Below, in pieces: positions 26,627 to 29,962 of a stretch of 41,008 bases of DNA; the stretch's first letter is position 1; every line of letters starts with the position of its first letter. A program made the position numbers and the translations under genes. The DNA is from an uncultured Caulobacterales bacterium (GTDB lineage Bacteria > Pseudomonadota > Alphaproteobacteria > Caulobacterales > Maricaulaceae): contig CALHXF010000029.1 of the NCBI GenBank assembly GCA_938040095.1, positions 66,646 to 107,653 of the forward strand, given 5' to 3'. The notes beneath the pieces are model-generated. The model was given only the letters and a program-made list of their open reading frames with translations, searched no databases and had not been told where the DNA came from.

Positions 26627-27088
26627 TTACGCCGCCTTTGCGGGCTTAGGGGCGCGATCTCCGAACCACCACAGCGTCGCAGCCGTCGCAGCGAAGACTG
26701 CCGCCTCTGCGATAGCTTCATTTTGCGTGCGAAGAAAAATCCAAGCTGTAATGCCCCAAAGTAGAAGTGTGAGCGCGGGACGAACAAGCCGTAAAATATT
26801 CACAACCCATTGGCTGGCCTTTCCAATGCCGGCATCAGCCTTGATTGAAGCCTCAAGCCCCGCCCACGATCCAGATTGCGCCACGAGTGCAAGTTCCATT
26901 TCCGTTTCTTGAGACCGAGCCTGCATATTTAGTTCATGCAATTTATACTCATGACCCCACCGCGCCTGTTCTTGACTGTGGGTTTGCCGTCTTTCAAAAA
27001 AGCCAGCTACGCGTCCAAGTGCTGTCCCAAAAATGCCGAATAGGCCACCAGACGCCGCTTCAAATCCAAGTGCCATTACATCTGCCAT
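26627..27088 (-). CDS. Holin-like membrane protein (GTA/phage 3TM type)
   Basis: 153 residues from the ATG at 27088, which has CGAGG seven bases upstream; a longer frame to 27118 is possible. A hydrophobic glycine-rich stretch opens the protein (LFGIFGTALGRVAGFF), a charged coiled segment with many Glu/Gln/Arg follows, and two membrane segments lie near the C-terminus (LVRPALTLLLWGITAWIF and the AAVFAATAATLWWFG segment). This layout, ending WWFGDRAPK, matches the three-TM holins for gene-transfer-agent or phage release. It overlaps the preceding M15 peptidase gene by 13 bases, the usual lysin-holin pairing. No capsid, portal or tail gene is near. Confidence 0.7.
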   Translation of the reverse strand: MADVMALGFEAASGGLFGIFGTALGRVAGFFERRQTHSQEQARWGHEYKLHELNMQARSQETEMELALVAQSGSWAGLEASIKADAGIGKASQWVVNILRLVRPALTLLLWGITAWIFLRTQNEAIAEAAVFAATAATLWWFGDRAPKPAKAA

Positions 27089-27468
27089 AAGTGCCTCGCA
27101 GTTTGGGTCGACCACCATTCACGGGGGCGACCAAGATCAATGTGTAGAAAAGTTTGGTAATATCCGAAGCCAGTGAAACCAGCCTGTTTACACGCACCGA
27201 GTAGATCAGAACACGTGTGTTCGTGGGCGGAAATATCCACAGCTAACGTAAGGTGTTGAGAAAGCGGCGCACCACCGACCCTTGCATTGTGCAAAGCGCA
27301 GCGATGTCCAGATAAGATATGAAAGCGCCGTCCCACAGTTGAGCGCGCCTGCTGCAATCGATCTAAAAAATCTGCGTGAAAATATGTTTGCCCGCAATGC
27401 CTGCAGGCGAACTCATGCGGCCTAAAGTTTGGCCATCGCCATCGTTCAATGTCTTGTTCTGTTTTCAT
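27076..27468 (-). CDS. M15-family peptidase, probable endolysin
   Basis: 130-residue D-Ala-D-Ala-carboxypeptidase-like metallopeptidase, the size of phage-type lysins. SGHRCALHN, then PLSQHLTLAVDIS with zinc ligands His72 and Asp78, and FLHIDLG with His109, form the expected site. The His-to-Asp spacing is one residue shorter than the common SxHxxGxAxD, and the Gly is absent. An N-terminal CRHCGQ is present. No signal peptide, so export would depend on the overlapping holin-like protein. It should cut the peptide part of peptidoglycan. Start ATG at 27468 directly follows a palindrome and lacks a Shine-Dalgarno, suggesting a leaderless message. Confidence 0.82.
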   Translation of the reverse strand: MKTEQDIERWRWPNFRPHEFACRHCGQTYFHADFLDRLQQARSTVGRRFHILSGHRCALHNARVGGAPLSQHLTLAVDISAHEHTCSDLLGACKQAGFTGFGYYQTFLHIDLGRPREWWSTQTARHLWQM

Positions 27469-27561: not shown

Positions 27562-28863
27562 CTAAGTGAACTGACCCAACTTGCGCGCTTTTTTCGCTGC
27601 AAGGTAATAGAACGTTACGCGAGACTTAAAGCGTTCGCCCTTCATGTCCTGACAAACCTCTTTCACGAGGTCCATTTGTCCTTCTGTCCTACCAAGTTTT
27701 TTCGTCACGAAACCGTCTGCAACAGTCTGTAACTCAGCTTCATCTGAACACGCCACAAGTTGTCCGTCACGTGTGCGCAGTGCGATACCGCAATGCTTTA
27801 CGATGCCTTGAACAACTGGCTTACGCGCTTTCGGGTGATACTTCTGTACATTGGCGAAGTACTTATCAAATGCAGCATCAGCTTCGCTTGCTTTCGCTGT
27901 ATCACGCGTAGAACCAGCCTTTGGTCCAGGCTTCTGACGAGGCTTACCTGCGGCTGTCAAGTTGCCACGTTTCGTTCCAGGTTTCGGTCCAGGCTTTTTA
28001 CGAGACTTAGTAGTGGCCGCTCCAGATTTCGCGAAACCTTTTGCTTGTGGAACCCAAGAGTCGCGTTCGATGCGACCTGGGATCGAGTCGATAATACCTT
28101 CGACCATCGTCACATCTTTCTTCTTCCACGCTGCGATTTGGCGGAAATAGTAGATGCCTTTAGAATTCAGGTCTTTCTCAAACTTCGGCCCGATGCCTTT
28201 AATCAATTTAAGATCATCTGGCGTGCCGTCAGTCGGACCGTCAGTATAAAGAACCTTCGGTTTCGGAGCCGCTTTCGCTTTCGGCTTTGCAGCAGCCTTA
28301 GGCTTCGGTGCCGCCTTGGCTTTGGGTTTTGCCGCGGCTTTCGTTTTAACTTTAGCTTTTGGCTTTGCGGCTACAGCAGCAGCAGCTCCGACCAACGCTG
28401 CCGCACCAACAGCTTTAGCGGCTTTTGCTTTCTTCTTAGGCGCGGCTTTCTTAGCAGCAGGCTTAGGCGCTTCTGCGATTTGGCTTTCAAGATACTTCAC
28501 GCGAGCTGCGAGATAGCGGTTACGCCATTCAAGAGCATATGTGTCATCATCAGCACCATCATCGGCCTTTGAAGCGGCTGTCGCTGCAAGAGCGGTAGCT
28601 GCAACGGCGCCGGCTGCGCCTGCAGCAAGTTTACCTTTTAGACCTGAAATTTCAGTATCGCGTGTGGACACGTTACCTTCAAGTTCCTGAACACGTCCAC
28701 GCAAGCTGTCCGCTTCTGCACGAAGAGCGCCTTCGCCTTCGATTGACAGGTCACCATCAATTTTCTTTCCACGAAAGAAAAGCCAGCCCAATAAAAGGCC
28801 TAAGAGAGCAGCAGCAATGAGCCACAACCAGTTACAGAGAATAAATGCGATTGAGTTAGACAT
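27562..28863 (-). CDS. Membrane-anchored Lys/Ala-rich HhH-DUF2853 fusion protein
   Basis: 433-residue multi-part protein. A single membrane segment (5-30) is followed by RGKK, so the rest should be cytoplasmic. A coiled-coil-like region (about 44-78) and an Ala-rich stretch (81-99) follow, then a Lys/Ala/Pro-rich histone-H1-like tail (132-203) with a 14-residue tandem repeat. Next is a helix-hairpin-helix domain (215-270; LKLIKGIGPKFEKDL, then GRIERDSWVPQAK) of the kind found in the NuoE/L21-associated H3TH group. Two AT-hook-like segments (KKPGPKPGTKRG, KPRQKPGPKAG) follow. The C-terminal 105 residues form a DUF2853 domain (YHPKARKPVVQGIVKHCGI to TFYYLAAKKARKLG), normally a stand-alone protein of about 100 residues. 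DNA or RNA binding at the membrane is inferred. It follows the OmpA/BON gene by 13 bases and ends in a terminator. Confidence 0.88.
   Translation of the reverse strand: MSNSIAFILCNWLWLIAAALLGLLLGWLFFRGKKIDGDLSIEGEGALRAEADSLRGRVQELEGNVSTRDTEISGLKGKLAAGAAGAVAATALAATAASKADDGADDDTYALEWRNRYLAARVKYLESQIAEAPKPAAKKAAPKKKAKAAKAVGAAALVGAAAAVAAKPKAKVKTKAAAKPKAKAAPKPKAAAKPKAKAAPKPKVLYTDGPTDGTPDDLKLIKGIGPKFEKDLNSKGIYYFRQIAAWKKKDVTMVEGIIDSIPGRIERDSWVPQAKGFAKSGAATTKSRKKPGPKPGTKRGNLTAAGKPRQKPGPKAGSTRDTAKASEADAAFDKYFANVQKYHPKARKPVVQGIVKHCGIALRTRDGQLVACSDEAELQTVADGFVTKKLGRTEGQMDLVKEVCQDMKGERFKSRVTFYYLAAKKARKLGQFT
28252..28335 (-). repeat. Tandem 14-residue Lys/Ala/Pro repeat in the DUF2853 fusion
   Basis: Residues 177-190 and 191-204 repeat AAKPKAKAAPKPK with one change at the last position (Ala, Val). 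The DNA copies differ at many third-codon bases, so the repeat is old or held by protein selection rather than recent slippage. The whole Lys/Ala-rich stretch runs about from residue 132 to 203. Confidence 0.85.
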
Positions 28864-28876
28864 GGGTTTGGTACTC

Positions 28877-29962
28877 CTATTGGCCGCGTGTCACGGTGAA
28901 GTCGATACGGCGGTTCAGGGCACGTCCTTCTTCGTTATCATTTGATGCACGGGGCTTTTCTTCCCCATATCCTTTAGCTGTCATACGATCAGCTTCTACC
29001 TGTTGATCAGCCAGATAATTTTTAACAGTCTCCGCACGTGCCTCAGATAACCATTGGTTATAAGTGGCTTCGCCAACACTATCGGTGTGTCCGTCGACTT
29101 GAACGCGAAAGGCTGAACATTGGTTCGCCGCAGACGCCAATTTATTCAAGAAGTCGAAACTTCCCGCACCTTTGATATTTGCTTTACCCGTTTCAAACTG
29201 AATACGTGTTTGACTTTTTAAGTCATCGAAAAGCGTTTGACAGGCAGACTCTGAATTTACGACGCCCACATTTACGGCGGCTGTCTCGGGAACTACGATG
29301 TTCGCCGCAAAACCAGCGCCATACTTTCCAGGAAGGGTTTGGCCGACACCGTTAATTGCGTTGCGAACACTCGCGTCAGTCGATGTACCACTGATTAACC
29401 CGTCAAAACCTTCTTGAGAGAAGCGGCCTTTATCAAGGCGCGATAATTCTGTCATATAAGTTTCAGTGACATCAAGGAAGCGCTCATCAGGAGCGCCATT
29501 CGCAACCTGAATTTTGCGATCAATTGGTTTGGTATTGAAGATACGGTTGGCTGCAAGCAAAACGTCAGCCTTGGCTGTTTCTGATGGAACGTAACCAGAT
29601 AAGGTGACATTGCCATTTGCGTCTTTGACAGCATTAAATGTGTAAGGAGTCTGGGATGGCAACGCATCGAAGGACATTTCGTCCTCAACTGTGTGCCAGC
29701 GACGCTTTCCCTTACAAGAGGAACAATCGGCATTCGTCGCGATGTCCAAAGCAGCAGCTTTCTGAGCTGCGCTTGTGGCCTTACCTGACAGGACGGCTTT
29801 GTTGCCATCCATGTTAACTTGAATGTTTTGGTGACCGTTGCTGTCCAAAGCCGAGCGAATATCATTCTGCATACTTGGAATTTTTAGAAAGCTGAGGATC
29901 GCTGAAAGTACGAGACACACAAGAGCGACCAACACACCTGCGCCTAACCATTTCGATATCAT
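28877..29962 (-). CDS. OmpA family protein with BON domains (ArfA-like)
   Basis: 361-residue envelope protein. An N-terminal membrane anchor (about 5-26) is followed by two BON-like units (about 33-75 and 105-152; KAVLSGKATSAAQK and VTLSGYVPSETAKAD) and a middle part of unclear fold. A C-terminal OmpA-like peptidoglycan-binding domain runs about 245-361 (IQFETGKANIKG, VDGHTDSVGEATYN, TAKGYGEEKP, LNRRIDFTV), including the Asp and Arg that hold diaminopimelate in this family. A CSSC pair lies near residue 80. The layout resembles mycobacterial ArfA and alphaproteobacterial OmpA/BON proteins. Likely inner-membrane anchored with the domain in the periplasm, gripping peptidoglycan. It is the first gene of a two-gene operon with the DUF2853 fusion. 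Confidence 0.88.
   Translation of the reverse strand: MISKWLGAGVLVALVCLVLSAILSFLKIPSMQNDIRSALDSNGHQNIQVNMDGNKAVLSGKATSAAQKAAALDIATNADCSSCKGKRRWHTVEDEMSFDALPSQTPYTFNAVKDANGNVTLSGYVPSETAKADVLLAANRIFNTKPIDRKIQVANGAPDERFLDVTETYMTELSRLDKGRFSQEGFDGLISGTSTDASVRNAINGVGQTLPGKYGAGFAANIVVPETAAVNVGVVNSESACQTLFDDLKSQTRIQFETGKANIKGAGSFDFLNKLASAANQCSAFRVQVDGHTDSVGEATYNQWLSEARAETVKNYLADQQVEADRMTAKGYGEEKPRASNDNEEGRALNRRIDFTVTRGQ

Follow-up and report, generated by a model that had tools for sequence, protein, structure and literature searches.

What might a bacterium do with a membrane protein that carries a helix-hairpin-helix (HhH) domain and a DUF2853 domain and that is encoded next to a putative peptidoglycan-binding protein? 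The question is raised by a gene pair found in a 41,008-nucleotide stretch of DNA (the window) from an uncultured Caulobacterales bacterium (assembly GCA_938040095.1, contig CALHXF010000029.1, positions 66,646 to 107,653). As the original prediction, made from the letters of the window, had stated, the two genes are adjacent. Both are on the minus strand and, in the list of open reading frames, only 13 bases (28864-28876) separate the upstream gene, coding for an OmpA/BON protein, from that of the membrane fusion protein. The same prediction saw in them a possible tether between cell wall and nucleoid. We found that the two genes are usually kept together in a group of marine bacteria (47/54 named loci paired), as a conserved unit of which one protein has a domain of peptidoglycan-binding type and the other a tail with HhH and DUF2853, and we tentatively favour its reading as a wall-anchored membrane platform whose cytosolic tails would act as interchangeable interaction tags.

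Conservation of the gene pair

The first fetch retrieved 20 loci, the twentieth of which (L020) encodes another HhH protein. The remaining 19 encode a DUF2853 membrane protein and have an OmpA/BON gene adjoining it in all cases (19/19), which argues that the adjacency is not due to chance. A larger set of 54 named loci was found by the patterns YALEW[RQ]NR or YLAARVKY; several of them share genomes with the other locus sets, so that the sets are not independent. An OmpA/BON gene lies directly upstream of the partner (the fusion protein or its counterpart) in 47 of the 54, and the fusion is therefore not a common stand-alone protein, as the original prediction had allowed that it might be. Broken down by type of partner, the upstream gene was present for 36/37 partners with HhH and DUF2853, 7/12 with DUF2853 alone, 2/2 with HhH alone and 2/3 with neither domain, some of these last three loci being cut by contig ends.

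We obtained a similar picture when starting from the other gene. Seventy-one proteins spanned both BON and OmpA, of which 70 were assessable (L094 ends at its contig), with one locus counted as paired by inspection (L100, whose frame overlaps) and one genome, G050, counted twice for its two pairs. In 61 of these 70 loci, which are distributed in four families of the order, the adjoining gene encodes a membrane HhH protein or a homologue of its N-terminal part: 14/14 in f1, the family of the window, 17/18 in f2, 24/27 in f4 and 6/11 in f5. Leaving out three loci fetched for adjacency (L118-L120), the count became 58/67. Outside the order, a class-wide sample of 95 genomes contained nine other HhH-bearing genomes, in three of which (L162, L163, L164) the gene of a membrane HhH protein comes right after one of OmpA type. 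In L162, the membrane protein that follows the end of the OmpA-type gene has two HhH domains. The pairing is not obligate: nine assessable OmpA/BON loci are partnerless and six genomes have the partner but lack the OmpA/BON gene, so that the expectation of an OmpA/BON gene always adjacent had to be abandoned.

Architecture of the two proteins

The OmpA/BON protein has the architecture that had been proposed for it. Both domains exceeded the curated Pfam cut-offs (OmpA, PF00691, 8.1e-19, 68.2 bits versus 27.2, residues 256-351; BON, PF04972, 1.5e-11, 44.8 bits versus 27, in two stretches), and the AlphaFold2 model (mean predicted local distance difference test score, pLDDT, 86.8) starts with a single long N-terminal helix (residues 3-41). 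It continues with three alpha/beta units (residues 48-98, 108-153 and 162-223), which we read as BON-like, and finishes with the OmpA fold (residues 238-359). The OmpA motif residues are present (GHTDSVG and LSEAR), including the TD-motif Asp and the Arg after it, which we take to be the diaminopimelate-binding residues of OmpA-like domains, and the protein presumably binds peptidoglycan. The motif Asp was found in 65 of the 71 BON-OmpA proteins, with Ser in three, Arg in one and two others without a pattern match. Ser replaces this Asp (GYTSS) in 5/19 OmpA/BON proteins (L008, L012, L017, L018, L019), where peptidoglycan binding may therefore be altered. In addition, the first BON unit has a CxxC (C80, C83) with hardly any variation in the clade, and two cysteines of the OmpA domain (C241, C282) are invariant; these cysteines may form disulphides.

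The composition foreseen for the fusion protein, namely a membrane helix, a linker, an HhH and a C-terminal DUF2853, was also confirmed. Its DUF2853 match was over the curated Pfam cut-off (PF11015, 1e-24, 87.5 bits versus 25, residues 334-429) and that of HHH_5 was below it (PF14520, 0.01, 16.7 bits versus 27, residues 217-257). Despite this miss, the HhH call is well supported because the region matches the solved chains 9wqv_a (7.6e-20) and 8yy9_O (1.3e-15). It also follows the pattern of an alphaproteobacterial HhH tail module, DDLKxIxGxGPxxE...GRIxRDxWVxQA, in a 10-row alignment with 14 invariant columns. A LapA domain was considered and rejected, its match being below the cut-off (LapA_dom, PF06305, 0.0017, 18.7 bits versus 28). 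The model of the fusion (mean pLDDT 59.5) is good for the N-terminal helix and DUF2853 only and poor elsewhere. The helix, together with the RGKK that comes after it, predicts a topology with the basic tail in the cytosol.

Most invariant columns in a 19-row alignment of the window's clade fall in the N-terminal helix, the YALEWRNRYLAARVKYLE segment and DUF2853. The HhH is missing in 4/19 of these orthologues and the KPGPK repeats in 5/19. These repeats had been described as two AT-hook-like segments. We discarded this idea, since they are not conserved and gave no Pfam AT_hook match up to an E value of 0.1, in a search whose filters can lose short motifs; the core of an AT-hook is RGRP. Other families differ in the tail: f4 partners have the segment repeated, an HhH and no DUF2853, and three of the six f5 partners have HhH and DUF2853, the other three HhH alone. 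The partner is less uniform across families than the pairing (window coordinates of all features are given in Table 1).

Table 1 Features of the gene pair and of the fusion protein, in window coordinates.
Feature	Coordinates	Strand	Description
OmpA/BON gene	28877..29962	(-)	361 amino acids: N-terminal membrane helix, three BON-like units, C-terminal OmpA-like domain with GHTD...LSxxR motif
Membrane fusion gene	27562..28863	(-)	433 amino acids: N-terminal helix, coiled coil, YALEWRNRYLAARVKYLE segment, Lys/Ala/Pro linker, HhH, KPGPK linker, DUF2853
N-terminal helix of fusion	28777..28860	(-)	Residues 2-29; G26 invariant, G22 nearly so; RGKK follows
Segment TYALEWRNRYLAARVKYLE of fusion	28486..28542	(-)	Residues 108-126; Y109-L125 invariant over 19 rows except R114
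HhH domain of fusion	28021..28251	(-)	~Residues 205-281; module as at the C-terminus of NuoE, L21 and Dinoroseobacter shibae protein-O
Second linker of fusion	27898..28011	(-)	~Residues 285-322; two KPGPK repeats
DUF2853 domain of fusion	27577..27864	(-)	Residues 334-429

HhH and DUF2853 as tails of other proteins

The two domains that end the fusion protein also occur as tails elsewhere. Across a survey of 30 genomes, the ribosomal protein L15 carried DUF2853 in 15 of the 28 cases found, HhH in five and no tail in eight. For S2, also found in 28 (in G000, the window's assembly, only by a contig fragment), the corresponding figures were five with DUF2853, eight with HhH and 15 tailless, and NuoE had an HhH in 18/27 and no tail in nine. 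We did not see HhH and DUF2853 together on any L15, S2 or NuoE of this survey. The 22 f1 genomes with a DUF2853 partner had a tail on 20/21 L15, 13/21 S2 and 16/19 NuoE found; in the other eight surveyed genomes L15 and S2 were tailless (7/7 found each) and NuoE had an HhH in two of eight, both from f2. Pfam confirmed examples of L15 and S2 with DUF2853 and, for examples with an HhH tail, the bodies as L15, S2, L21 and NuoE. The interchange of HhH and DUF2853 as C-terminal tails of L15 and S2 can be followed at loci L105, L106, L107, L112, L115, L116 and L174. At L108, a 264-amino-acid protein with DUF2853, for which Pfam names this domain only, looks phasin-like.

That two unrelated domains occupy one and the same position on these proteins suggests that they do equivalent jobs, and their exchange on the ribosomal proteins L15 and S2 provides a testable statement about DUF2853. 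A distant relationship between both domains was considered and rejected (hhalign probability 0.1, a weak comparison of small profiles with Neff ~2.3), and Foldseek detected no fold relative of DUF2853 with E < 0.001 beyond 2pyq. Moreover, a basic linker followed by HhH is present on NuoE and L15, and one followed by DUF2853 on L15; such parts are, therefore, not special to a wall-nucleoid tether.

Tail charge and nucleic acid binding

A tether of this kind would rely on non-specific DNA binding by the HhH, the basic linkers and DUF2853, and in this way link peptidoglycan, inner membrane and chromosome. The charges in the window's clade agree with it. DUF2853-bearing members have tails with a net charge of +25 to +63, and seven of the eight HhH-bearing f1 partners have a basic linker and, likewise in 7/8, an HhH of net charge +2 or +3 (-2 in the eighth). 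Two papers also bear on DNA binding by comparable parts, reporting that the AAKP tail of PhaF is a basic, non-specific DNA binder through which granules are attached to the nucleoid (PMC5658603), and that Halomonas PhaC2 proteins match H1-like or COG3743 (H3TH) domains, taken by the authors as DNA binding (PMC8686332). However, this part of the proposal did not extend beyond f1. In f2, f4 and f5, the HhH is net negative in 39/43 partners (zero in three, positive in one), the linkers are negative in f2 (-2 to -113 per 160 residues) and of mixed charge in f4 and f5 (-20 to +19, with noise added by the use of stop-to-stop frames), and the GxGP hairpin is lost in 15/20 f4 partners. Counted over all frames with an HhH match, this hairpin is present in 36 of 54. 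The acidic domains and linkers, together with the hairpin loss, make a conserved DNA tether unlikely; DNA binding is not supported as a general function of the pair and seems not to be the feature that the families share. Furthermore, the HhH is absent in 12/49 named loci with a DUF2853 partner, the KPGPK repeats are neither canonical AT-hooks nor conserved, and the HhH is also found on NuoE and on protein-O of the reaction centre-light harvesting 1 (RC-LH1) complex, with no evident need of DNA there. We thus consider the tether somewhat unlikely overall, although a clade-specific version is possible in the window's clade, where the basic charge of the tail has been kept and nucleic acid binding may accordingly occur.

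The nucleic acid might also be RNA. HhH and DUF2853 would then bind it on L15, S2 and L21, and, through the partner, ribosomes or mRNA would be kept at the membrane that is anchored to the wall. Three ribosomal proteins with such tails in different genomes and the basic tails of the window's clade are in line with this explanation, which seems nevertheless very improbable given the occurrence of HhH also on NuoE and protein-O and the acidic HhH and linkers of the other families. Within the window's clade, DNA or RNA binding is a serious rival to the docking function that we discuss below.

A putative wall-anchored platform

From the pair, its domains and the sharing and swapping of tails we infer a topology, a contact between the two proteins and a docking function. 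The OmpA/BON protein would be held in the inner membrane by its one helix, with the BON-like units across the periplasm and the OmpA domain on the peptidoglycan. The partner would be inserted in the same membrane by its N-terminal helix, which would pair, together with the juxtamembrane part, with the OmpA/BON anchor, leaving the remainder of the protein in the cytosol. There, the HhH and/or DUF2853 at the end of a flexible linker would serve as interchangeable interaction tags, and the wall-anchored docking point would hold tagged assemblies, or their common ligand, at the membrane. The presence of the same tags on L15, S2 (L21 elsewhere), NuoE and perhaps a phasin would make the pair such a docking point. 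We regard this platform as a possible, still tentative, explanation. A bolder version, in which HhH and DUF2853 are interchangeable address tags on ribosomes (L15, S2, L21), complex I (NuoE), possibly storage granules and also a wall-anchored membrane receptor, with the tagged assemblies gathering at wall-anchored sites of the membrane, appears unlikely to us. If the platform is real, it could help to explain how ribosomes, respiratory complexes or granules may be retained at the membrane in Alphaproteobacteria, and would give a clue to the meaning of HhH tails; the bolder version would represent a system for ordering the bacterial cytoplasm. The parts of the pair are already known. We found no description of the pair or of the exchange of HhH and DUF2853 tails in titles and abstract openings of openly licensed literature, which is a weak absence.

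Several observations weigh against the platform. Six genomes keep the partner and lack the OmpA/BON gene (L049, L056, L057, L061, L066, L070); a whole-genome search, positive in both control genomes, found no full-length OmpA/BON elsewhere in any of the six (a seventh neighbour-less locus, L074, lay outside this search). Four of them are labelled Robiginitomaculum and, therefore, maybe few events are involved. The HhH, too, is missing in five of the six, yet 7/12 partners with only DUF2853 keep the OmpA gene, so that HhH loss as the cause of OmpA loss is suggestive only. As for the nine assessable OmpA/BON loci without a partner, five belong to f5, in three of which the gene is located ~250 bases before a lyase-like gene that we took for purB.

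Lone OmpA/BON genes would be in agreement with an envelope-integrity factor, in which the OmpA/BON protein, with a build like that of Rv0899, does the work, the partner is an assembly or stability factor and the tails are accessory. Rv0899 is indeed the best fold match of the OmpA/BON model (5.8e-13), and the cytosolic tails differ greatly among clades. However, a pure assembly factor should not survive in the six genomes that keep the partner without the OmpA/BON gene, and many DUF2853 positions are invariant in the window's clade; we consider this explanation, like the tether, somewhat unlikely.

Returning to the platform, the partner does not have one conserved N-terminal core across all families: an N-terminal profile found 0/6 partners in f5 and 10/17 in f2, the WRxRYL segment pattern was detected in 36/62 partner frames, and the partners missed by the profile were recognised by the HhH, itself a mobile module. 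Pair and tails do not always coincide either. The four f5 genomes examined have the pair, yet their L15, S2 and NuoE are tailless, as is the NuoE found in the one f4 genome examined, and three class-wide genomes without the pair have one HhH match each on an apparent L21 (one confirmed by Pfam). Finally, the contact between the OmpA/BON protein and its partner is something that we infer, which we also count against the platform. Once two flanking genes are allowed for, distances between OmpA sequences still correlate with those between partner N-termini (partial r 0.34, p 0.001, 33 loci) and do not correlate with those between DUF2853 ends beyond the flanking genes (0.003, 33 loci). However, the OmpA gene correlates equally with each flanking gene (0.34, 0.44) and, therefore, distance correlation is no test of contact.

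Genomic context

The window's assembly comprises 214 contigs, with a completeness of 78.6%. One of its contigs, of 6 kb (C123, locus L117), carries the pair once more, with a fusion 79-81% identical; this second copy may stem from a related strain or be a duplicate. Named relatives are Litorimonas, Hellea, Algimonas and Robiginitomaculum, many assemblies being labelled only Caulobacterales, Hyphomonadaceae or wider. The neighbourhood is largely syntenic over the 54 loci, with a nitronate-monooxygenase-like gene in 47, a short-chain dehydrogenase/reductase (SDR) gene in 44 and an M28 peptidase in 42. The products of two overlapping genes of the window (26627-27118 and 27076-27468, both on the minus strand) are a small protein that has hydrophobic stretches, and an M15 peptidase resembling phage endolysins (PHROG endolysin, 1.1e-22). 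Relatives of each occur in 36/54 loci, so that they are perhaps a domesticated lysis cassette.

Comparison with known systems

The known protein closest to the OmpA/BON protein is Rv0899 (OmpATb/ArfA) of Mycobacterium tuberculosis, whose structure (PDB 2l26) was the best Foldseek match of the model (5.8e-13, 23% identity) and which also matched in sequence over residues 114-357 (1.6e-14). Both proteins combine a BON-like region with an OmpA-like domain, placed in our model behind one membrane helix. Rv0899 has an N-terminal anchor and its neighbours are ArfB and ArfC; a neighbouring partner with HhH or DUF2853 is not known to us.

On the side of the fusion, PhaF of Pseudomonas putida is, unlike it, a granule protein, to our knowledge devoid of membrane helix, HhH and DUF2853. 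The description of PhaF (PMC5658603) gives it a comparable basic Ala/Lys/Pro tail, located after a leucine zipper. The same linker and HhH module as in the fusion occurs in HhH-tailed NuoE, L21, S2 and PhaH (NCBIfam PRK12373, PRK12278, PRK12311 and PhaH; 1.1e-26 to 1.6e-13), the matches being confined to this part and none exceeding a whole-protein cut-off. The bodies of these proteins differ from the fusion in that they are complex I, ribosomal or granule proteins. The DUF2853 of the fusion matches PDB 2pyq of Jannaschia (Foldseek, 4.0e-5). This domain is often a small protein (~52/82 frames in 120 genomes of the order have 110-165 amino acids), whereas here it ends a membrane protein.

A membrane protein similar in plan to the fusion comes from D. 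shibae. In the parts of the RC-LH1 report that describe protein-O (PMC12079452; PDB 8yy9), the authors noted its C-terminal domain on NuoE too and called the functions of HhH tails obscure. The N-terminal part of protein-O, a two-helix hairpin with a disulphide, is unlike that of the fusion, but both proteins share a membrane N-terminus, a long flexible loop and a C-terminal domain of HhH type (1.3e-15).

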